Source: Apostichopus japonicus (Eukaryota; Echinodermata; Holothuroidea; Aspidochirotida; Stichopodidae). From it: a DNA stretch of 64,000 nt. Position numbers and translations under genes: made by a program. Each line of letters begins with the position of its first letter. Within the stretch, counting starts at the first letter, position 1. This document shows positions 28,890 to 63,685 of this stretch, piece after piece. A model generated the notes under the pieces. It searched no databases and was not told the DNA's origin. It saw only the letters and a list, made by a program, of their open reading frames with translations. Location of the stretch: assembly GCF_037975245.1 (NCBI RefSeq), contig NC_092561.1, forward strand, positions 5,010,001-5,074,000. Reading direction: 5' to 3'.

Positions 28890-31800
28890 TTACCATATAG
28901 GTGTGCATTCATGATGTCCCCAATGGGCTTGGTAGAGGAAGAGATATGATATGGTTGCGTGACTTTTGTATGTAAGGATGATCTCCTCGGCGTCTAACCA
29001 GGGAGTTGTTCTGGTCTAGTAAAGTGTAAGTTATTCGCAGCTTCATCTCGTGCAGCGATCACTATAAGACCGTTAATGGGATATTCCAATCGCAGACAGT
29101 GTGTTACTTATATAACTATCTACATGACATATTTTCAAGTGGCTGGTTAAACTTTTCATTCTTCCCCGAAGTGGACCGCAATACATGTTCTGTGTCGCAA
29201 TGACGATGTGGTAAGGTCAATGTTTCTTCACATAGCTTTATACTAATTTTCATTAATAATGAAATAATATTCATATTGACTTTTGTATCCTATAAACCTG
29301 TTCATTTGAAATATTTGCTTGTATATGTCAAGGTCATTCTTTAGATTTGAATCAAAATGCAACTATATTTTTAGAAATTTGTATTATTTTGCCTTTATGA
29401 ATGAGTGAGTTAAAATTAAAAAGTAAAACATAAACATTTGGAAAAAATGTACAAAACAAAAACAAACCATGTCTTCACCAGTATAGCATGCTGCAAGGAT
29501 GTGGTTTCGACATACAGATGCAGAATAATTCCAACATTTTCCATGATTAAGCAATTAAATTCAGCAACTGGGATATCTCTTTCAACCTATCGATGAAGAC
29601 TTGAGGACTGCATGGATAATCCTCTTTCAATCTGAAACTGATTAATAGCTTGTAAAGTTCAGTTGATAATGTTTATGGTTTCTTTCTCTATAATGACGAT
29701 TTACTGTCAGACTATGGACATTACCTTATGCAAGAGACAAGAATGCACAGGTTTATCCCGTGACAAGGATGTGTAAACGTTTGTCCACATTTAATAGCAA
29801 ACGCACACGTGTATTTGCGTTGGAAATTATTGTAAATTTCTTATATTTCTTCAGTATATCTTCGTGCCAATATGGGTTTAATGTGTACTTTACAGGCTTA
29901 GTACATAGTAGTGAAAGATAAAACGTGTCCTTGGTGACAATATCCTTATACTTGAAAACGAGAATGAAAACTGGTCCCACCCTCTCAAATATGGTAAGAA
30001 AATGTTTTTGTTTTAAACATTCTGTCTGCCCACCCCCTTGGAAAAGCCTCGTCCTCCCACCCCCAATAAAGAAAACAAAATAGAAAAAAAGAAAAAAGTC
30101 CAGCTATACGCCTCTATATCGCCTTGGTCTATTTTATTCGAAGTATTTGATATGTGTCACGCCTTGGAATAATTTATAGGTAAGCGGTTATATTAATGAA
30201 AATTAAAAAAAAAGTAATATTAAAGTTAAAATTTGTTGTAGGCTGATTGACAATGAGCATGATTTGAACAACGTTAATTAATGGCAATCCAACGTTTCCA
30301 TATACCTGGCATTTGCTCATTCTGTGAACTAAGAAAATTAGTTTTCAATGAGCGCCACCACTCAGAATTTCGCCTACGGCATTACAGTAGTGTAATATCA
30401 ATTGAACGAAACATATTTTTCTTGAAGTCCACCAGCCGCAAATATCAATTACTTCAATGAAAGAGTGAGGTTAGAATAATGTTTTTTGTTTTTCGATCAT
30501 ACGAGAGTATTTTGTTGGACAATTGAAAATGCAGGAATATTGATGAGGAAGAATTTATTCCCTCGGAGCATATCATTAGGATATACTTTAACTGTGTAAG
30601 CCTGCCTGTAATGTTAGAGCGTAGGCCTTAGTAAACTTGCTTTGAAAGTTCTAACGTTAAGCCAGCACAGACCACTACTAGCAGTATTATTAGGCTAGTA
30701 CTACAGTAGCCTAGTAGTACTACTGTATCATAAAAGTTAAGCCTTACTCTTACAGTGATACTGGACCTAGGCTAGACTAAGCTACTATTTATCACACCAA
30801 AGTTTGCTAAGGATCACACAGTAAATAAATATATATGGCAAAATATCTTAGAACTTGAACTAAGAAGAAACTGTTGAAGCTGGCATGACCTAAACAAGGC
30901 TTTAAGATTTCAAGGAAGAATTTCAGCAAAGGCCTATGCCATAACTCCAAAACTTAAGCTAGCCACAGCTCTATGTATGGCTTAGCACTTAGTCCAGGGC
31001 ATGCGATCCTAACCACAAAGCAGGCATCAACAATTATTCTAAGAATTACTCGCCATTTGGCGACCGTGACTTAAAGTCCATGCGCTTAAACGTAAAATTC
31101 ACTCGCCACTGTTATTGCTTCATATATGTTTGAGTATGCTTACTTGAAGTATTGTATAAAACTACATGATCATTACTTTCTGAATACTAAAAGTTAGGCA
31201 GATCCATGGTACTCCATAACTGCACATTGGAAAATTATATTTCTGTGCAGTATGAAATTTAAAAAAAATTCATCCAGAAGGTTAGTGATGAACAAATTAG
31301 AACATGTCGCAGACTCCTTAATATGCAGTTTGGCCTATTTTGTCTCAAAAAATTCCAAAACTTAAAAAATTCCTGTATATAATACACGTGCAGATAGGAA
31401 ACTATTTTACACAGTTAATTCCAATTGAGACTAGTCATTGACAAAATTTAGTTTACAACAATATGTAAACTTGCTTATCACTTGTTTATCATTCTGTGAA
31501 ATGTTTGTAATAATAGAACTTTATGCTAATATTGGGGTTTGACTAGTCCACAAGTCACAAAGTGTCGAGTGCAGTGCATTTTGTATTTGAAAAAGCTAAA
31601 ATTCTACTTGCCAATGGCGAGTTTGTGAACATTATTGTCGAGGCCTGTCACACATTAAGCCTTCTAGTACTACAGAAAAACATCAAAATCCAATAATGTG
31701 AGAAGTTTATGGTTATCTTTCATTGGCTTTCAAGTGTTTTTGCATGAACAGCTTAATTTATGTGAATAATAAAATGGACAGAAATTGACTTCTCTAATTT

Positions 31801-42226: not shown

Positions 42227-43014
42227 GGGGGTTAGGGTTAGCCTAGGGTTAGCTATGGGTTAGGGGTTAGGGTTAGGTTAGGTTAGGGTTAGCTTAGTGT
42301 TAGCCTAGGGTTAGGGTTAGCCGCAGTAGGGGTTAGGTTAGGGTGAGCTTAGGGTTATTGTTAGCCTAGGGTTAGGGTTAGCCTAGGGTTAGGGGTAAGG
42401 GTTAGCCTAGGGTTAGGGTTAACCTAGGGTTAGCCTAGGGTTAGCCTAGGGTAAGGGTTAGCCTAGGGTTAGGGTAAGGATTAACCTAGGGTTAGGGTTA
42501 GGTTAGGGTTAGCCTAGGGTTAGGGTTAGCCTAGCTAGCCTAGGGTTAGGGTTAGGGTTAGCCTAGGGTTAGGGTTAGCCTAGGGTTAGGGTTAAGGGTT
42601 ACGGTTAGGGTGAGGGTTAGGGGTTAGTACGTTAGGGTTAGGGTTAGGGTTAGCCTAGGGTTAGGGTTATCCTAGGGTAAGGGTTAGCCTAGGGTTAGGC
42701 CGGGTTAGGTTAGGGTTAAGGGTTAGGGTTAGCCTAGGGTTAGGGGTTAGGTTAGGGTTAGGGTTAGCTGTTAGGGTTAGCCTAGGGTTAGGGTTAGCCT
42801 AGGGTTAGGGTTAGGGGTTAGGGTTAGCTTAGGGTTAGGGTTAGGGTTAGCCTAGGGTTAGGGTTAGCCTAGGGTTAGGGTTAGCCTAGGAATATGGTTA
42901 GCCTAGGGTAGTAGGGTTAGGTAAGGGTTAGCCTAGGGTAAGGGTTGGCTTAGCTAGGGTTGTCTAGAATTAGGGTAAGGTTAGGGTTAGTTTAGTGTTA
43001 GGTTAGGGTTAGGA
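42227..43014 (+). repeat. Interstitial telomeric repeat tract, TTAGGG with TTAGCC TAGGG variants
   Basis: About 790 bp is composed almost entirely of GGTTAGGGTTAG and the variant GGTTAGCCTAGGGTTAG, with occasional insertions and single-base changes. TTAGGG is the ancestral metazoan telomere unit. Unique sequence lies on both sides, so this is internal, not a chromosome end. The variant containing CCTAGG, a self-complementary word, alternates with the canonical unit in a regular higher-order pattern, so it has been amplified as a satellite rather than preserved as native telomere. Confidence 0.95.
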
Positions 43015-49886: not shown

Positions 49887-50256
49887 GCCCATGTAGCTAT
49901 TTATTGTAGTAGTATCACAATGTAGTTCCCCCCTCCCCAGAAAATTTCCAAAAAAAAGCTTGGCTGGTAGCCATAACAAAATTCAATGAAAAATACAGTA
50001 TGCTGAAATAAAGTGGAGAAAAACAGTATATTTCAGTTGTGAATGAATAATTAAACTTGCTCAAATCTCCTGAAACCTGAACAGCTACCCAAAAGTACAA
50101 ACAAAAGTGTTAAAAAAGAGTTAACAAGGATAACTACTTAAGGCTATGGATAACAATGCCTGATGTTTTAGGAAACATGAGCTGTATGCATCATCCATGA
50201 CAACAGGAGCTAACGGAAGAAGATTTACACTTCAGTCAGGAAGATTGCAATTCAGT

Positions 50257-50700
50257 AGTGGGTAGTGCTATAGCTTTTATACTATAGTACTGTAGAGCCT
50301 AACCAAATAAATGCACTCCCTAACATAACTAGTGGGTAGTGCTATAGCTTTTATACTATAGTACTGTAGAGCCTAACCAAATAAATGCACTCCCTAACAT
50401 AACTAGTGGGTAGTGCTGTAGCAACTATACTATAGTACTGTAGAGCCTAACCAAATAAATGCACTCCCTAACATAACTAGTGGGTAGTGCTATAGCTACT
50501 ATACTATAGTACTGTAGAGCCTAACCAAATAAATGCACTCCCTAACATAACTAGTGGGTAGTGCTATAGCTTTTATACTATAGTACTGTAGAGCCTAACC
50601 AAATAAATGCACTCCCTAACATAACTAGTGGGTAGTGCTGTAGCAACTATACTATAGTACTGTAGAGCCTAACCAAATAAATGCACTCCCTAACATAACT
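50257..50700. repeat. Tandem array, six exact-length 74-bp units
   Basis: Units start at 50257, 50331, 50405, 50479, 50553 and 50627, each with AGTGGGTAGTGCTATAGC and ending CTCCCTAACATAACT. Units are nearly identical. A few differ at GCTATAGCTTTTAT versus GCTGTAGCAACTAT, and the two variants alternate in a way that suggests duplication of multi-unit blocks. The array lies about 0.95 kb beyond the 3' end of the helicase coding region. Confidence 0.97.
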
Positions 50701-51651: not shown

Positions 51652-54600
51652 CTAAATGTCAGGTTTGGTTTTCGCAGCCTCCTTTCTTTGGATTCTGACC
51701 TCTTTGTATTCCTGGAATTTTTCTTTCACGCAATAGGTGGATAATTTCTTGATGTACTCCTTAAATACGTTTACGTACAGGTCTCTCTCTTTGGCATCTA
51801 TAAAGAGGTCATTCCATAATCTGTTGATTTTTGGCTGCGGATCAAAGAATGGACAATTTTTTTATGCTAATTCAGTCGACAGAAAAAGGCATAGACGTTT
51901 ATTTATACAATGTAATTTTATGCCATGTGATGTTAAATCAAAGTCATGGGATTAATTGCAAGAAGTGCAGCCTACATTGGATTCAAGTATTATTAAAAAA
52001 TAAAACAAGAGCCCAACAAGTACTTTGGTCCCTTGCTTAGTGTATTATAAGAGTGTTGTATGTCATCACACAATATCATATTTATGCCTACATGTACCAG
52101 CCATTAACCGACATCTGTATTCCAAGTTTGGATACAATCTGATGTGAGGTTGTGGAGTTATTGCAATTTTAAAATTTTGGCTCCTCCCAAAAAATTGGGC
52201 GAATCAAAGTTTTGCGCCTAAATGGTCCCGAAAATATTTGGCCAAACAAAGTGGCTCAAAAATATATTTACCCCCTCCCCCCAAAAAAAATTGAACCCCC
52301 AAAAGTGTAGGCCCAAGTGGTCCCAAAACCTTTTGGGCCCCACAAATTCGGACACAAAGAATGTGTCCCAAGATGTATTTCAGGTAGAAACAAGAGCATC
52401 AATGACGCAGTATCTCAATACTGGAAGTTTTAATTTTGATTCCTAATTTCAAATCTTTGCTCTGTCTCTACAATTATCAATATCAATCATGGTACAACAA
52501 ATATATAACTTGCATTTTTGCTACTTTGCCACGAATAGTCTCTGCAGGTTACACTTTATCCTGCTAGTCTTGCCTTTAGCGCTCATTGCCTGTTAGTCGA
52601 AAGAACGACGTTGCAAGGTTTAGTAATGTCATAGAATATTTAAGAACTTGTTTTTTATGTGGTATCCTCCATCTTGGGTCAGTCTCTGTTGGACTTTTTG
52701 GTCATATAGTTTATAGTTTGACGTCAATGACAACGGCCAAATTAGAAGAGGTGAACAACTCGACCATATTCTTGATGCCTGCCTTGAGAGCTAGGCCTAT
52801 TGACCTACTGTATGTTACTGTAGACTGTAGTGGTGACTACCATCAAAACTGTGTCCACTTCTAGATATCAAAACAACCCACGTTTTTCCATCTCAATTTT
52901 TCTGACATGAAGATTTCATGGATTTATGACTTGGAAAAAATAATGTAAAAGAAGATTACAAGTTTTTATATGCAAGTGATGGGTGGCCTCCTCCTCCCCT
53001 AATAGCCACCTCAGTTCCTCTCCATTTTGTTATTTTATTTTAATTCTTTGTACATTTGATGTCAAACATTACAGGTTCAAAAGAAAGCTAAACATACTTC
53101 TTATAACCTTATACATCTTATATCCTTATAAATAAAACATAACCTTATACAATTTTTATAGTCTTATAAAAGTTGTGATGCTATGGCCGGCTCCTCTTTT
53201 ATACGTACCCATCAACAAACTTACCCTGGTCCTTCCTAGGAAAAGCTGTCTGAACACCAGTACAATGCTAATGTGGCTATCACTGAAAGCCTAATAGACC
53301 TAGGGGGCCTAGGCCTATATATATATATTTTTAAATGCACTAGGCCTACAGTAAGTAGCCTTCAGAAATACAAGAATGTGTATACGTAATTATACAAAAT
53401 ACATGAAGGGCAATCAAACAAACTTATCATGGCCCTTGCTCTGAAAAGCTACCTGAACACCAGTACTATCCTTAAATGGATGTTACAAAAACGAAGGCCT
53501 AATATAAATTAAATGCACTACGTAGAATTCAGCAGTACAGAATTTGTATATGTAATTAGCATGCAATACACTACACCTGGCGTACCTAACTACAATACAG
53601 AAAATTGGTCGCGAGGGTAGCCATTTTCGTATATCTAACATGTAGCTGCCATGAGTCATAGCCAATCTGCTACAAAACAGACTTGGGGGCGGGGCTTAAT
53701 CATCAAAAACGGACCTTTTTACTAAAAGTAGGGGCGGCAGCTCAGTGTTGTTTTAAGAAAGAAAAATCATTTAAACATCAAATAAAGCAAATAAAAGCCA
53801 TAAAATGTCATATACAGCTGGTAAAATTCTTATTAATACCTACCTGTAAACAACAAATGAAAGTTTAAAATGTTAATAAAATATATAATACATAGGACCC
53901 TATCTTAGACGATACCACTGTTGACAGACAATTCTATTCTATTCTCTTTCATAAAACATAAGTTTTGGAGCGTGTGCAAAAATGGGTTGTTTAAACTGTA
54001 TTTCAGACCAAATTGGCCCGATTTGGACATAAATCGGTGAAAAAGTCATAGAATGAGATAAAATTCTGGAATAAAAAATAGTAACTTTTGTTGGCCTATA
54101 TGATATATGCTTGCTCTGAAAATTCCAGAGAAAAAGAACTTTATATGAAGACGCTGAAAAATTTTTAAGAGAGGAGAGAGTCCCACTTACTGTTACAATA
54201 TCTCTATACATGTAATGTATTGAGATAATAAAATTTAGGCCCAAAAATGGATCCGGAATTTTTGGGGCCGAGATGGTCAAAAAAATTAGGCCTACATGTA
54301 CCAGCTATTAACCAACAACTGTGTACCAAGTTTGGCTACACGAGGTGCAGGTTTATTGCAATGTAAATATTTTAACGTTTGACCCCATAACCTAGTCACA
54401 CCAAAAACAATAGTGCACATTTTTCTCACTGTAGTATATGTATATAGCAAGTATGACAAATATACATCACTCCGTTGTTGATTTATACTGGACCCGAGCA
54501 AGTATCACAGACACACACGCCAACACGCTAAACTGCATAGGTTTCTTTGCTTCCAGCAAGGAACCATAAATTGAAGTAACGAAGTTGAACTATTTACCAA

Positions 54601-57600
54601 GAACTCAAAGTTGCCGATGATGAAGACGGAGTACGCTGCTCTGGTGAGGGCGACATTCAGCTCATTGTGATTATCAAGGAAGCTGTAGTAGGATAACAAA
54701 AGGTTTTTTTTTGGAAGACTTCTTGTAGTAAGAATATTTTTCAGATATAGGACATGAAATATCATAGATATGAAGTGAAATTTCCGTCATGTAAAGACGT
54801 ACAACCATATCAGTCAGTTGAAAACAACTGCTGCAGACGACAACAAACATGATCGAAAGAATAAAATTCTGTGTTGAAATTTTACCCCAGATATTGAGAA
54901 TACGGTTGTGTCTTAACACAGGAGATGATCACAATATCCTTCATCTTCCCTTGAAGTCCTTTGATATCGCCTATGTAGGGTCTAGGGAACAAACAGACAT
55001 TAACAAAAACAAAATGAAGCCACCAAAAAAACACAAAATCGTCTCCAAAAAAAACAAACAAAGCAAAATGGATTTTACACACCCCATCATTTACAAACCG
55101 GTATCTTTCAAAGATCACTTAGTTTTGGTTTAGTGCTCCTCAAAATGATGATTTCAATAAGATATTCCTTTTTGTTCAATGGTTGCATTCCTTTTCAGTG
55201 ATTTTATTCCTTAGCCAATGGCGGAGCGTCCATACAGTCAGAGGGGGCGCATGCCCCCCCCTGACGGACTCGAATGGACTGCTGGCGCCCTTTTCAGCCT
55301 TTCACCACTTTTTACTTATTCACGATTATTGACTTTTTTATTGCGCTCTCAAATACCTATTGATATTTGTCACATTTTGTTGGTGTAATTTTCTGACAAA
55401 ATGGCGATGACACCTATTTATCCTTCGTTTATCTGCAAATTAGCAAGGCCCGGAAAGGGTAATGTCCGGCGATCTAGGGAGTATCTTTACTCAAAAAATT
55501 CATGAAAAGGTTGGCTTCTCTAGGGAGGGGAGTCACGTGCCTCCTGCCGCCCCCCCTCCCCCCCTCCCTTCTTATCCAGCTAGGACGTCTCTCTTGCTCT
55601 CACTTACCCAGCACGATTATTAATCTTCTGTTTCAGCCGTCTGACTTGTTCCCGGTACGGTGCTATGATCGCTAGACTAATGTTGTGACCAGAGTGCCGA
55701 AAGATAGTGTCAACCAGATTCTGCACCAGATCAATCTCTGCTTCGTTGATCAAATCACTTTAATTGTTTCAGAAATATCACAATAAATTACATACAATAT
55801 CAGAAAATTATACTGTCTGTCAGAAAGTGAAAAATCCTTGGAACCATATTCACAGGTTTATAAAGCAGGCAGATCACTTAAACCAAACTGACTTCTATGT
55901 TGTTTGGAATTGTTAAGGTGCCATCAAAACGAATCAATCAATTTCTGCAATTTTGTTCCAATATATCCATTTGCTGCCAAATGTGGAAATGATGACCTTT
56001 CTGATGCGAGCAAATTTAAAATTTTGAATTTTTTTGGAATTCTGGTGATGCCTACATGTAAAATGGTGGCACTTAGAAAGGCTTTTGTCACCCAATATTT
56101 TCTGAGAAATATGCATTTTTTTGTGTGTAACATCAATAAATTGAATAGTAGGTGATAATTCATTCTTTCCCGTGGCATGAAAATGTTCGCTACTCGCCCC
56201 AATGAAAAGAAATATAGGCTAATTTAAGGTTCAAATGATGCTGTAAAGGAGGTTTTATACTCTACTATGCTAAATGCTAAAGAAATGATGGTTGCTAAGT
56301 CAAAATTTGATGCAATTTTTTTTTATGTATACTTGACAATTACAATGCGGGTTTTCGGACGCTTGCGCGGGTCAGCGGGTTTGGGTGTTAGAATGCGGGT
56401 CCAACCCGCGAAATGCGGGTCAGTTGGGAGCTCTGATGTTGAATTTTGAAACGACTGAGTTCATTTCCATACAATATAACTTGATACAATGAGACATATA
56501 CATAAATACAATAACTAATGATATTGAATTGTACCATCCAACCAATGATACCCAACCATACCATATAAATACAATAGATGCATACATATACACATACATA
56601 CACACACCTATAGATACATACATACAAGGATGTGTAGGAGGCCTGAGAAATTGAGAGCATTCTAATTATGTATGAATATTACAAGCCTTGACAAGAATGG
56701 TTTAAAGTTAAGAATCCAATGCAAAATGCAGTTTTAATGTACATAGGCTTACCCACATAAAATAACATTATGTTCAATAGAAAGTGGGGTCTCTTAAGCA
56801 AAAACCCAGTTGGGACAATTTTTTTCGATACTGTTCATTCAAATCCTGCTTCCGAGCACTCGGAAAGACAGTATGAGTAGTTTGTTGCTATCAGATAAAA
56901 GTTGGGAACTGTTCATACTGTCAGAACGAGTGCTTTGAAGCATGAAATAGGATGACAGTATAGTGTGGTATTAGCATTACAAACAGAGTAAAGGTTAGGA
57001 ACTGTTCATACTCTCAGTACGAGTGCTTTGAAGCATGATATAGGAAGACAGTATAGTGCTATTAGCATTACAAACAGAGTAAAGGTTAGGAACTGTTCAT
57101 ACTGTCAGAACGAGTGCTTTGAAGCATGAAATAGGATGACAGTATAGTGTGGTATTAGCATTACAAACAGAGTAAAGGTTAGGAACTGTTCATACTGTCA
57201 GAACGAGTGCTTTGAAGCATGAAATAGGATGACAGTAGAGTGTGGTATTAGCATTACAGAGTAAAGGTTAGGAACTGTTCATACTCTCAGTACGAGTGCT
57301 TTGAAGCATGAAATAGGATGACAGTATAGTGTGCTATTAGCATTACAAACAGAGTAAAGGTTAGGAACTGTTCATACTGTCAGAACGAGTGCTTTGAAGC
57401 ATGATATAGGATGACAGCATATAGTGCTATTAGCATTACAAACAGAGTAAAGGTTAGGAACTGTTCATACTGTCAGTACGAGTGCTTTGAAGCATGAAAT
57501 AGGATGACAGTATAGTGTGGTATTAGCATTACAAACAGAGTAAAGGTTAGGAACTGTTCATACTCTCAGTACGAGTGCTTTGAAGCATGATATAGGAAGA

Positions 57601-60600
57601 CAGTATACAGTGCTATTAGCATTACAAACAGAGTAAAGGTTAGGAACTGTTCATACTGTCAGTACGAGTGCTTTGAAGCATGATATAGGAAGACAGTATA
57701 CAGTGCTATTAGCATTAGGAAGTATTGTCCCAACTGGCTGCATGAAACATTCATAAGGATATTCATACCCATCAGATGTGGCTTTCTCTTCACTGTCTTT
57801 GAGGTTGAATATGAGGTACGGCGTCAATTTGAAGTTCTCCCTTCCATAAATGGGGCTAAGAGGGTGAGAAAAGATGATTCAATAACTGGACGAGAGTGCA
57901 AGCTACAATACACGAAGTAACTTCTAATGGATGCTAAATTGAAAATAAAGCCATTCTCAATTATTTAATTTCCTATTAGGGCCAGGGGGAAAAAAATGGT
58001 TGCAGGAAAGTCTCCTCTTAGGGCCAGGGGGAAAATATTGCTTGCAGCAAAGGGTTTGAGGGAATCAGAATGTTACCAAAACTAGACAGCAATATCCAGG
58101 GTTGTATTTTATGTGTGTTTAGGGGGGGGGGGGGGTTTGATGCAAGATTGAGGGCAGACTATTGTTTTTTTCCCATATTTTTTAGTCGGCCTGATTTGGC
58201 ATACAAGCAAAGAGCTTTTTTTCACAGCTATATCAATTATTGTTAATGATATAGCAACAGCACTCAACAACAGAATATAAAATTAATTAATGGTATAGTG
58301 TTACTATCATTCTAACTAACATTTAACAATTATATAACAATATGTACCAAACATAATGATCTACTATTGACCTATTCAGTATGATAAGCCATAACTAATG
58401 ATATCCAATCATACCATAAAACTAATGATATCCAACCATACCAACAAACTAATGATACCCAACCATACCAACAAACTAATAATATCCAACCATACCAACA
58501 AACTAATGATACCCAACCATACCATCAAACTAGTTATAACCATACCAAACTAATGATATCCAACCATACCAACAAACTAATGATACCCAACCATACCAAA
58601 AAACTAATGATATCCAACCATACCAACAAACTAATGATACCCAACCATACCAACAAACTAATGATACCCAACCATACCAACAAACTAACGATACCCAACC
58701 GTACCATCAAACTAGTAATAACCATACCAAACTAATGATACCCAACCATACCAACAAACTAATGATACCCAACCATACCATCAAACTAGTAATAACCATA
58801 CCAAACTAATGATATCCAACCATAACAACAAACTAATGATACCCAACCATACCAACAAACTAATGATACCCAACCATACCATCAAACTAGTAAGAACCAT
58901 ACCAAACTAATGATATCCAACCATAACAACAAACTAATGATATCCAACCATAACAACAAACTAATGATACCCAACCATACCGTCAAACTAGTACTATCCA
59001 ACCATACAAAACTAATGATATCCAACATACCATCAAACTAATGATACCCAGCCATACCATCAAACAAGTTATAACCAACCATACAAAACTAATGATACCC
59101 AACATACCATCAAACTAATGATACCCAGCATACCATAGAACAAAATGATTCCCAACCATACCAAAAAGCTAATGATACCCAGCCATATCATATGCCTAAT
59201 GATACCCAACCATACCATTAAACTAATGACACTCAACCATGTCATCTCACTAGTCATCCCTAATAAGTGATACTCAACCACATCAAATGATATCAGTCCA
59301 TACTTGTTCCTGATTCTGTTGTGGTAAAAAATTTTGTTCGGAAAGCTAAATATTTCTGGATGGCACCAACATTGATCTGTGAGCCTTTGAACCGGATGAG
59401 AACTACTCCCTTGGAAGTTCATCCAGAGACGAGTGAAGAGAGACTGGGAGAGTTTTAACCGACTCGGAATCTGAGCGGAAAAGAAAAACAATTATTAGAG
59501 TTAAGCAATTCAAACAGGAGTCCAGATGTTTCTTGATTTGTTGATCAGCAAAAGGGGAACATAATAGAAAGAATCATGGTGGCATTGAACAACATGAAAA
59601 CAAATGCAACTCTTGCAAACATTGAACATTAAAGGAACTCCACATCCTCCCTTCTTTCCTCCTCTTCCACCCCTCCCCCTCTCCAAAATATCATTGTTTT
59701 GGTTGTCACACCTGTGGAAATGCCTTTGGTTTCAGCTCCTTTGGGTCTCCAGCAAGTACTAACTTAGTTATAGTACTGTACAGGGGTAATATTGTGTCCA
59801 CTTCCAGACACTGACATGCCTGCAGAAATAAAAGAAATGAAAAAATATGATACAAGGATATTAAAAACAAAAACATCAACTTAACATAACATCTGGGACT
59901 ACCATCAATTCTGCTCTTAATGATTTTCAATGATGACACAACATAAATATTGACATTGATATGTTGTAGACCATTCAATGGCACTGCTATCAGGTTAGGT
60001 TTGTATCTTTACGACACATTTAATTATTGAGAAATGCCTCGTTAAACATCTGAGGTTCTTTGATAAAAGTGGCTGGTTTACATAATGTGCTACCGGTACT
60101 GTGGCCACTGAGTGGATAAAGGCGGTGGCATTTGAAGGAATGAGGCTTAGCAATCTTGAGGTACCGTGTTCGATACCCTGCCGGGTCATCGTTAGGTGGA
60201 TTTTTCATCCAAGAGCAATCTATGGTTTTCTCATATGAAATGACTTTCTAAATTTGGAAAAGATTCCAAATTTGAGTTAAAATGTTGAAATGGAAGACAC
60301 CCGACAAGTAATTCGTAATCCATAAGCCCTTGCGGGTTTCTCCCACATTTGTGGTCGCTTAAGATGTTGTAAAAATAACTGCTACATGTTATTATTATTA
60401 TTATTATAATACACAGACCATTAGAACAGTTTGTTAGAAGCAGCTGGGAAAAAAAAAACTCAATTGGAAAACAGAAGACTTTTATGGCCTCAAATGAAAT
60501 GTTGATGATGTAGTTTGAGTTTGATTGATTTCCACATAATATAAATACAATAGTGAATAATTAAATTACAAGGAGGTGGAGGAGGACTGAAGAAGCAGAG

Positions 60601-63600
60601 CTTTTACAAGCAGTGCCCAATTACAAGAACAATAAACGAAAAAGGACACGTGGTATTAAATGTCGTCCAAGGATGCTCTGTTGTTTATATGAAGTTACAA
60701 AGAACATGTTTTTGGTTTAGGTATTTGCTTTCACAAAACGATGGATTGACGTTAACATTTAGGTTTGCACTAAGGTAGGGTTACCATATTTGTTTTTGAA
60801 AAACCAGGACACCGATCCGCGTCCTACACTGATCCGCGTCCTGGGGGAGGGGTCTAAGGGGAGGGGGTGGAAAATTTTTCGTTTTTCAAAGGTGCCTAGA
60901 TGCAAAATGGTGCAATCTAAATCACTCTAATGGGGACTCAGGGAGGTCCCCAACTTGAGTGAATTATGGTTTGGCTCCAAGTCTAGTAAAAATTAACAAA
61001 AAGTGTACTGTGCCACAGGGCAGATTGGAGTCCAAAAAATCTCCTCTGAATTTATGCACCTAAGCATACTTCTCTGAGGATCTGATTTTCCTCAACAAGG
61101 AAGGCCGCCGATGTTCAATCACAGATTCACAACACTTCATACTTCGGATTGGCGCGCGTGATACTCTGCCTAAAACTGACATTATGTTAGATAGGGCAAT
61201 ACTCATAATTACGGTGTGTTCACGCTATTGACTGCGTTCTACTATACTTTGTGAGAGCCCGTCTACGTGCAGGAAAGTGGTGTGTGTCTCTACTGCTGTC
61301 CGTATATGGTATATAATATATTATAGGTAGCAGACGACGCGAGTACGCGTTTATTGCGTATAAATTTAGTTGGAAATCATTTGCTCGTGACTTGTGAGGT
61401 TAAATTAGGGAAAACCTGTCAATTCCTGTGTGAAATTCTTGAAATCCGGATATTATTGCCAAATTGGAAAATCCACCTGGACGCCCGCGTAAGTCACGAA
61501 AAACCGGACATGTCCGGGTAAAACCGGACGTCTGGTAAGCCTACACTAAGGAGACGACATCATTCTCACTTGAGCCTACTTTCAAGGTGGATATCGTGAG
61601 AACCGAAATAGCTACAGAAACATTACTGGAGGGGTTAGCCTGGTGTAAAACAAAAAAATCACGGAACTTTGCAAAAGTTGCGGTATAGGCTCCAGTTTGC
61701 TTATGCTGCAGTGTGTTAGGATAATAGTTTTTGTCCCCGAGGTAGAAAAGGAATCACAGATATTCTGCGAATTCACGGAAAAAGCTTATGACTGTTACTG
61801 TCACTCATTTTTTTTTTTTCGTTTTTCTTTAACTTCTTTTAAACACTGTAGGTTAACACTGAGACAGGTATCGAATGTAAAAGAAAATGTCACCTCGTCA
61901 ATAATTGCGCACGAAAAGGTGACCTTTAGTGGATCGTTGGCTGGCCGTCTGAGCAACTTCTGCAAGACCTGTAAATTATAAAAGGAGACAGCTAGCTATA
62001 AGAATAAAGCGATCCCCTGACGTCACTAGCGATTAAAATGAATCATGTAAGAAATATTAAAGAATTATTGCTCAACATTCATATTCGTGTCTAAAACTTA
62101 CAAGTTTGCCAACATATATTTGCTATTGTCCAAATAGTCTTGTGTCAACATATCATCGTTGTCCTACATTTTTTTCCGGTCTAATATGTTGCTGTTATAC
62201 TGGCCAACGATACTGTTATTGTCTAAAATAGAGCAATCAAATCAATCAAAACGTTGATCCAAGATTAGTTCAATATAACAGCAACAGAGACGGCGACAGA
62301 CAAGAAAAGAACAAAATTGCTCGATTTTCTTTTCGTTTTTTGGATGAATATAGATGGAATGCAGAGTGCCTAGAAATGTTGGTAACCCACCGGAGAACTG
62401 ACATCGCTGACTCTGCAGCAGATGACGTCTGCTTTCACAATCAATTCCTCTCTTGTCTTGTCAGGATTAAACTCTGCTTTGAAGTCATTTTCCAGCTTCT
62501 GTTCCACCTCCCTATTGGATCGAAGTGCCGTCTTCTCCTTCCGTAGTTTTTCAATCTTGGAATTGAGAGGAAGGTTTATAACCAATCAACTAGTAATGCA
62601 ACTTACAGTCCTGTGTGTAAAACTTGTCATTCAATAGCAACGTTACTCACATTGCCTATTTATCATTCAAATAGCATCATAACTCACATTGCCTATTTAT
62701 CATTCAAATATCAGTGTAGCTCACATTGTCTATTTATCATACAAATAGCAACATAACTCACATTGTCTATTTATCATTCAAATACCAATGTAACTCTCAT
62801 TGTCTATTTATCATTCAAATAGCAACATAACTCACATTGCCTATTATTCTTTCAAATTAGCAGTGTAGCTCACATTGTCTATTTATCATTCAAAAAGTAG
62901 TGAAGCTTACATTGCCTATTTATCATTCAAATACCAATGTAACTCACATTGCCTATTTATCATTCAAATAGCAGTGAAGCTCACATTGCCTATTTATCAT
63001 TCAATAGCAACGTTACTCTCATTGTCTATCTATCATTCAAATAGCAGTGTAGCACACAATGCCTATTTATCATTCAAATAGCAGTGTAGCTCACATTGCC
63101 TATTTATCATTCAAATACCAATGTAACTCACAGTGCCATATTTCTTTGGAATGCTGTTGTATTGGATACTGGCGTCTAAATCTTGTTCCCTCATTTCCAG
63201 CATCCCAATACGTTTTCGTATCTGCTTCAGTGTGTTATCATGTTTGGCTGTTCGGGGAGGGGGGCAAAAATGTATGCAGATTTTTAGATGAATTGTGGAC
63301 TATTAAACTCTTTATTCAATCAAAATTTGAACTGAAAAAAATATTAAAATGAAATGGAATATTTGTCAACAAAATTTCATTCCTTGCCTAATGATCGAAG
63401 ATTGTAAACACCAGGAATGATAGAGCCCTGGTCGTCGTCATTCACATTTTGAGCAAGAATGTAATCGTACAGACATAGGACATACATAAAGGTTGACACA
63501 ATTATTATCCATAATGGAAGACATGCGTAAATTAATACGCTGGGCTTTTGTAACAATGCAGACTCCATAAAATCCAATACCTTCTGTGTCCTTCACAATT

Positions 63601-63685
63601 TTCTCCATTGAAAATTTATGGTACTTTCTGCCAATATCCGCAACATCACCTAATCGGAGTATGAAATGAGTAAGACCAGCGGGAG
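51652..63685 (-). CDS. Senataxin/Upf1-like SF1 helicase, C-terminal 437 aa (11 exons, 5' end outside window)
   Basis: Minus-strand exons: 63685-63581, 63247-63132, 62555-62412, 61968-61894, 59819-59712, 59470-59304, 57855-57769, 55757-55608, 54981-54886, 54682-54598 and 51834-51652; every junction agrees in phase. The order of blocks matches the Upf1-like core after Walker A: LGDVADIG, a coiled linker (EKLRKEKTALRSNREVE), KADVICC, motif II AIIDEACQCLEVDT, motif III LVLAGDPKEL, motif IV region QCWCHPEIFSFPNKIFY, KLTPYLIFNLKD, AIIAPYREQVRRL, motif V GLQGKMKDIVIISCV, motif VI LNVALTRAAYSVFIIGN, and the family-typical end INRLWNDLFIDA. The last exon ends in a 40-residue basic tail. The family acts on RNA or RNA:DNA hybrids using ATP. 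Several motif residues deviate from consensus (see findings). Walker A must lie beyond 64000. The donor after the third exon (GTCAGC) is weak and that join is the least certain. Confidence 0.88.
52004..54566. mobile_element. Second TIR-bounded element of the 17.2-kb family, filling the helicase's last intron
   Basis: The left end ACAAGAGCCCAACAAG with TGGTCCCTTGCTT (52026-52038) and the right end CAGCAAGGAACCA (54554-54566) match the ends of the element at 17225-19519; the right-hand ACCAAAAACAATAG and CACAGACACACAC phrases are shared too. Near each end lies a copy of CCTACATGTACCAGC (52087 and 54290) followed by similar sequence, so it has subterminal direct repeats. The interior has a duplicated block of about 190 bp and no transposase. 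It occupies all but about 200 bp of the 2.76-kb intron between the last two helicase exons. Confidence 0.78.
53217..53590. repeat. Diverged tandem duplication, unit about 190 bp
   Basis: A block with AAAAGCTGTCTGAACACCAG, AAATGCACTA and TACGTAATTA recurs as AAAAGCTACCTGAACACCAG, AAATGCACTA and TATGTAATTA. The two copies are adjacent inside the 52004-54566 element. Confidence 0.7.
55215..55580. mobile_element. Putative dispersed repeat with G/C-rich ends in a helicase intron
   Basis: The segment starts near AATGGCGGAGCGTCC with GGGGGCGCATGCCCCCCC and ends in a CCTGCCGCCCCCCCTCCC block. Style and ends resemble non-autonomous DNA elements elsewhere in the window, but no second copy is seen here. 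It lies in the intron between the eighth and ninth helicase exons listed. Confidence 0.4.
56905..57768 (-). repeat. Minisatellite, 93-bp unit, nine units plus a longer head unit at the splice donor
   Basis: GTATGA on the minus strand occurs at 57768 (the exon's real donor) and then at 57656, 57563, 57470, 57377, 57284, 57195, 57102, 57011 and 56918, with spacings of 112, 93, 93, 93, 93, 89, 93, 91 and 93. Units are very similar, with phrases CGTTCTGACAGTATGAACAG, CTTTACTCTG and TGCTTCAAAGCACTCG. The array occupies the first 0.86 kb of the intron between the seventh and eighth helicase exons. Confidence 0.95.
58390..59303 (-). repeat. Minisatellite, about 27-bp unit, about 33 units, starting at a splice donor
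   Basis: On the minus strand the consensus is GTATGGTTGGGTATCATTAG followed by TTTGTTG. The first unit is the intron's own start, GTATGGACTGATATCATTTG, directly after exon 59470-59304. Units near the exon are the most diverged; those at 58400-58900 are the most uniform, with two main variants (GGGTATC, GGATATC). Because 27 is divisible by three, long low-complexity frames read through the array in both strands. Confidence 0.95.
60070..60385 (+). mobile_element. tRNA-derived SINE, copy 2 (helicase intron)
   Basis: The tRNA-like head is CTGTGGCCACTGAGTGGATA (A box broken by a 2-base insertion), then AAGGCGGTGGCATTTGAAG and a degenerate B box GTGTTCGATACC. The body follows in the same order as the copy at 8222-8517: TTTTTCATCCAAGAGCAATC, TTCCAAATTTGAGTTAAAAT, GCGGGTTTCTCCCACATTTG. 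It ends in an ATT trinucleotide tail at about 60390-60409. It is more decayed at the promoter boxes than copy 1. Confidence 0.85.
60780..61545. other. Intronic segment with a duplicated word block, possible decayed element
   Basis: Edges share the wording of a dispersed element: ACCATATTTGTTTTTGAAAA and AACCAGGACACCGATCCGCG on the left, and AAACCGGACATGTCCGGG with ACCGGACGTCTGGTAAGCCT on the right, giving a loose inverted relation (GGTTACCA.../...TGGTAAGCC). The interior has GGGGGAGGGGTCTAAGGGGA and ATGCAAAATGGTGC, as in 49110-49205. It lies in the intron between helicase exons 61968-61894 and 59819-59712. Confidence 0.4.
62614..63131 (-). repeat. Minisatellite, 37-bp unit, 14 units, first unit is the splice donor
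   Basis: On the minus strand each unit begins with a donor-like hexamer at 63131, 63094, 63057, 63020, 62984, 62947, 62910, 62873, 62835, 62798, 62761, 62724, 62687 and 62650, spaced 37 bp with one 36 and one 38. The hexamers are GTGAGT (6), GTGAGC (4), GAGAGT (2), GTAAGC (1) and GTGTGC (1). The unit continues with TATTTGAATGATAAATAGGC. The array begins exactly at the boundary of exon 63247-63132 and ends 59 bp before the next exon. Confidence 0.96.

Follow-up and report, generated by a model that had tools for sequence, protein, structure and literature searches.

How do introns of a single gene come to hold long tandem arrays in which the intron's own 5' splice site seems to be repeated? 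The question is posed by a window of 64,000 nucleotides from Apostichopus japonicus (contig NC_092561.1, positions 5,010,001 to 5,074,000), for which a first-pass annotation had described three introns of one helicase gene as minisatellites with units opening on the same hexamer as the genuine donor, and had attributed them to repeated, independent amplification from intron 5' ends. Our analysis leads us to consider it probable that the first of these arrays, and probably the second, are "mirages", i.e., in-place tandem duplications at exon-intron junctions. Repeated local amplification at junctions surely applies to the first array, probably to the second, and recurs in other genes; it does not apply to the third.

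The helicase gene

The helicase core of a SEN1/senataxin-like protein ("senataxin" being the name given to the animal relative of SEN1) is encoded on the minus strand by 11 C-terminal exons, which run from 63685 to 51652 and are supported by exon ends, phases and homology. Among proteins of solved structure it comes closest to a fungal 5'-3' RNA helicase-like protein, SEN1 and UPF1, and it has the Pfam domains AAA_11 and AAA_12. The window thus holds 11 exons and 10 introns of the gene, and the earlier count of three introns with arrays and seven without is correct. The arrays follow exon A (63132–63247, ending in AAATATGGCACT|GTGAGT), exon F (59304–59470, AACAA|GTATGG) and exon G (57769–57855, GATGG|GTATGA), all on the minus strand. 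All three exons (3/3) have a GT donor in a phase that fits the next exon, and all are covered by alignment, in the case of exon A with SEN1. The F/G and G/H joins lie within well-aligned stretches of SEN1, UPF1 and the fungal relative; the alignment with SEN1 also takes in the A/C join, though where conservation is poor, and here phase supports the join. The reading frames are consistent with use of the first donor.

The idea that the helicase is a repeated gene was rejected, as this is the only intron-bearing copy that was found in the genome. Seven further matches, one on contig C15 and six on C3, share 24–28% identity and lie in single open frames of 632–1778 codons, apparently intronless there. 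Tandem repeats also occur outside the gene: a 74-bp array of six copies (96% matches) lies at 50256–50700, roughly 1 kb past the stop codon of the helicase, and a long, degenerate GGGTTA array, telomere-like and chromosome-internal, at 42229–43013 of the window. In the 20 kb upstream of the window, TRF gives just short runs with units of 1–12 bp and less than 40 bp in length.

Anatomy of the three intron arrays

Array 1 comprises, according to TRF, 14 copies of a 37-bp unit at 62627–63143 on the minus strand and spans the donor of exon A. Its 5' edge lies 12 nt inside the exon, and its unit is made of exon end plus intron start. The 28-nt junction of exon A recurs in 12 more copies in the intron, at 64–82% identity in an ungapped comparison in which shuffled queries reach at most 68%, and GT is kept in 11 of the 12. 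When gaps are permitted, 0 of 500 shuffles are as good. The repetition of this junction is far above chance. Searching the genome (671.6 Mb in 35 contigs) with the unit returned five matches from one candidate, all of them in array 1, a uniqueness that, like that of the array 2 unit, holds within the limits of a method that passes over very common words.

Array 2 consists of 33 copies of a 27-bp unit (TRF; 58393–59240, minus strand). Does it, too, begin with the donor as its first unit, as had been proposed? TRF places its start 51–63 nt past the donor, depending on the strand, and degenerate similarity to the unit extends to intron nt 18–40, perhaps to nt 1. The first 64 nt of the intron are matched in quality by 9 of 2000 shuffles and by 12 of 1620 windows taken elsewhere in the region, the first 27 nt by 283 of 2000 shuffles and 98 of 4332 such windows. 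With gaps permitted, the top match starts precisely at the first nucleotide of the intron; 41 of 500 shuffles do as well. The array nearly abuts the donor and the test of the first unit is not significant, so that the proposal is plausible and unproven. A genome search with this unit gave 11 matches from two candidates, all in this helicase gene; the sole place found outside the array is an isolated 51-bp patch resembling the unit in the next intron (56513–56563, minus strand).

Array 3 (nine copies of a 93-bp unit by TRF; 56892–57717, minus strand) is enclosed by a dispersed element that occupies 56807–57736 on the same strand and is bounded by perfect terminal inverted repeats (TIRs) of 13 bp, at 57736 and 56807; no target-site duplication was recognised in its flanks. 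The unit resembles the subterminal part of this element. It has 163 matches in the genome, including those of the array itself, with 40 of 2023 first-look candidates scored, and its dispersal is judged from these unit matches. The array starts 51 nt past the donor, and its copies of GTATGA, the first at +112 and the others spaced by about 93 nt, are not in register with the donor; a hexamer like it is present in about 2% of shuffled units, and we read its presence in both array and donor as coincidence. Because array 3 is part of a dispersed TIR element, the third of the donor-derived cases fails: the enclosing element, the dispersal of the unit and the mismatch in phase speak against such an origin, and it was rejected. 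TIR elements and MITEs with internal tandem repeats are a known kind, to which array 3, and only array 3, can be likened by its perfect inverted repeats, its dispersed family and its subterminal-like unit.

Junction arrays in other genes

Are arrays across donors peculiar to the helicase? As a sample of donors we used exons of three conserved families in the same genome, with TRF run on their flanks. There were 70 myosin-head matches (all listed; 65 of 186 candidates scored) and 126 kinesin matches (all listed; 122 of 202 candidates scored), and TCP1 contributed 53 of its 57 listed matches, three in one long open frame and one elsewhere being left out. Together, the 249 matches yielded 248 donors and 246 acceptors; both totals are approximate, since the matches may include intronless copies or several fragments of a single exon. 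Arrays were called at a period of at least 15 and a score of at least 100, thresholds that were used in an exploratory manner on myosin and kinesin and fixed as a test before TCP1. Four donors near arrays were corrected by eye: the cases at L092 and L175, wrong automated calls, were removed, L106 was added and L098 was moved by 4 nt. Expected numbers come from a model in which array edges are equally likely anywhere along a stretch made up of one unit length and 300 nt of intron. As an aside on the assembly, contig 35 is a mitochondrial genome: conserved positions of its cox1 make sense when AAA is translated as Asn, AGA as Ser and ATA as Ile, and tRNA-Arg comes directly after cox1, with tRNA-Lys and an inverted tRNA-Ser farther along. 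Echinoderms have this code and gene order, so that the genome is not one of amphioxus. Further cox1-like matches lie on a second contig, at C29:14745–16086 and 30842–31219, and possibly represent a nuclear or variant mitochondrial copy.

Donor-spanning arrays firmly exist in several genes. An array of their own spans 11 of the 248 donors against 4.84 expected (p = 0.004 by array; 0.011 at looser and 0.001 at stricter thresholds), three in myosin, four in kinesin and four in TCP1 genes. They are located in six of 64 gene clusters (L060, L061, L062, L098, L106, L108, L109, L166 twice and L174 twice). Acceptors are spanned in 3 of 246 cases against 3.14 expected (p = 0.64), and the 11-to-3 comparison of corrected donors with acceptors as called automatically yields p = 0.029. 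Such arrays are present at about 4% of sampled donors and are clustered in some genes, the 11 cases occupying fewer genes than randomly drawn donors would (p = 0.0001). With one array per gene, the excess at donors is not significant (mean p 0.09–0.23, before donor correction), and TCP1 alone has four spanned donors against 1.94 expected (p = 0.11). The comparison of array starts with donors that the first-pass annotation had suggested thus produces, on this sample, a modest excess by array and no significant one by gene, and a preference of arrays for donors is suggestive.

That the spanned junctions are truly repeated is indicated by a gapped test, in which 12 of 13 donor junctions recur in their own intron better than in any of 500 shuffles; these are the 11 sampled ones and array 1, the exception being helicase array 2. 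In an ungapped test, L098, one of the two L174 arrays (L174a) and array 2 are no better than shuffles. Whole-genome counts gave no clear excess of tandem donor-like words: three GTRAGT in tandem occur 18309 times against 20913 for the reversed pattern, single GTGAGT 257955 against 293811, three AGGTAAGT 374 against 446 and single ones 27121 against 40132, these last two pairs together giving about 1.24-fold after scaling. These counts decide little because large arrays dominate them.

Seen individually, the arrays differ considerably in what they copy. At L060, the exon end ACTAG|GTATGC belongs to a 53-bp repeat with 10 intron copies within the stretch examined, and at L062 some 90 nt from the coding tail, together with CAG|GTGAGA, recur in three further copies, likewise within the stretch examined. 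By TRF edges, 31–89 nt of coding sequence from the exon tail are duplicated into the intron at L062, L108 and L166. L166 has one array of seven 121-bp units and, one exon further, another of twelve 46-bp units, each combining some 30 bases of exon with 16 of intron. L174 carries 38 copies of a 31-bp unit, the first of which read GTAGTA against the donor's GTAAGT, and a second array of four 69-bp units. The repeats of L061 bear the exon end GG|GTAAGC with AT instead of GT in 9 of 17 copies, and at L098 the single copy of the donor junction has lost the donor. Several sampled junctions read AG|GT, and by eye the units differ from one another. Acceptor-spanning arrays, which copy intron end and exon start, were seen at L041 (254–625), L128 (136–344) and L098 (400–717). 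The TCP1-family gene at about 160–179 kb of contig C17 has several arrays in each of L174, L175 and L176 and none in L173; two of them span donors.

How strong are the copied donors? Copies from 10 arrays, those legible without gaps, were scored with a generic donor matrix, and 48 of 55 did as well as the genuine donor or better. These arrays contain 68 copies, of which 13 were left unscored: 10 at L061 (nine of them reading AT), two in one array of L166 (L166a) and one in array 1. As most copies are as strong as the genuine donor, position rather than strength would have to decide between them. Use of the next donor, its position set by hand, would result in a frame shift or stop in 13 of 13 cases (in the second L166 array, L166b, by frame shift), an outcome also expected of most introns.

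Origin of the arrays and known counterparts

How might such arrays arise and persist? We envision that tandem duplication of a short segment spanning or abutting an exon-intron junction founds a minisatellite, which unequal exchange or slippage may then lengthen. The first copy would retain the true exon end and donor, and later copies would fall within the intron, whereas at acceptor-spanning arrays it is the last copy that would have to be used. Provided that the exon-proximal donor is used, conceivably being chosen by order or exon definition, the protein would remain unchanged because the first copy keeps exon end and donor, and the arrays might be tolerated for the same reason and be near neutral. 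That fewer arrays are found at acceptors might reflect the fact that an upstream acceptor copy, having its own tract, would be the first to be encountered. One might go further and suppose a lineage-specific process, coupled to transcription or splicing, that favours amplification of exon-donor junctions in certain genes, up to about 38 copies, with donors mostly as strong as the real one and splicing governed by a rule of order or exon proximity; we regard this extended version as speculative and rather unlikely to be correct.

Alternatively, the arrays might have no link to splice sites at all, a minisatellite-rich genome scattering them over introns so that some cross junctions by chance. 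Intron arrays are indeed frequent: at strict thresholds (period at least 20, score at least 150; myosin and kinesin, uncorrected donors), they cover 6 of 195 donor points and 7–10 of 195 points located 20–250 nt inside introns. Chance would also account for acceptor spanning at expectation and for the lack of significance by gene. It does not readily explain why more than twice the expected 4.84 donors are spanned, or why array 5' edges gather at or near donors: 23 of 29 arrays at donors start within 100 nt, compared with 8 of 20 at acceptors (Fisher p = 0.007). We therefore judge chance scatter to be somewhat unlikely, yet by no means negligible.

The remaining possibilities fare worse. The strength of the copied sites is what one would predict if they took part in splicing control of the gene as backups or decoys (the first-pass annotation had proposed decoy or backup donors), but the next donor would break the frame or introduce a stop in every case, units are unlike between introns, and the AT copies of L061 together with GTAGTA in L174a mean that GT is not kept in all arrays; a regulatory role is thus very unlikely. 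It is highly improbable that the arrays are relics of intron gain through tandem duplication of an AGGT-containing exon segment. This mechanism is established elsewhere (PMC3443670) and would suit the AG|GT junctions in the sample, but the helicase arrays end before the acceptor, and the helicase donors at issue read CT|GT (exon A) and AA|GT (exon F). Copies of a mobile or satellite family brought into introns, which is what array 3 has turned out to be, seem an exceedingly improbable source of the others, given that the search, within its sensitivity, placed unit 1 nowhere but at this locus and unit 2 nowhere but in this gene.

In-place duplication at junctions is thus the reading that we favour, and it has implications beyond this gene. 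Should mirages prove common in an echinoderm, the phenomenon is no peculiarity of amphioxus, and a genome rich in them would be a natural testing ground for spliceosomal choice among near-identical tandem donors and for a contribution of junction duplication to intron change. Repeats at the start of introns can, moreover, upset gene models. In amphioxus Adh3, each intron is said to have a unit particular to it, and the confinement of units 1 and 2 to this locus or gene resembles this.

The first-pass annotation knew of no named class of element of this sort, yet the mirages of amphioxus Adh3, globins, troponin C and PGBD5 match: two reports describe minisatellite-like tandem duplications of exon-intron boundaries, with units of 10 to about 160 bp that span 5' or 3' splice sites and place pieces of exon in the intron, many copies bearing splice signals, reportedly harmless to splicing and unstable in length (PMC3087553, PMC3902484). 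A report of mirages in echinoderms was not found among the open-access papers searched, a collection that omits most subscription papers. Tandem repeats at exon-intron boundaries have also been noted in human duplicated genes (PMC2812944). Intron gain by tandem genomic duplication works through AGGT proto-splice sites and leaves extra splice-site copies (PMC3443670); our arrays share with it an exon-level tandem duplication that yields such copies, and differ in that only part of the intron is a duplicate and that AGGT is absent from the helicase donors. As in amphioxus mirages, array 1 is a minisatellite-like tandem array, and boundary and splice site are copied both there and at the 11 sampled donors (the L098 copy without its donor). 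The difference lies in the host, an echinoderm, and in the occurrence, besides the helicase, at donors of six among the 64 gene clusters sampled. We consider array 1, and probably array 2, to be new members of the amphioxus mirage kind.
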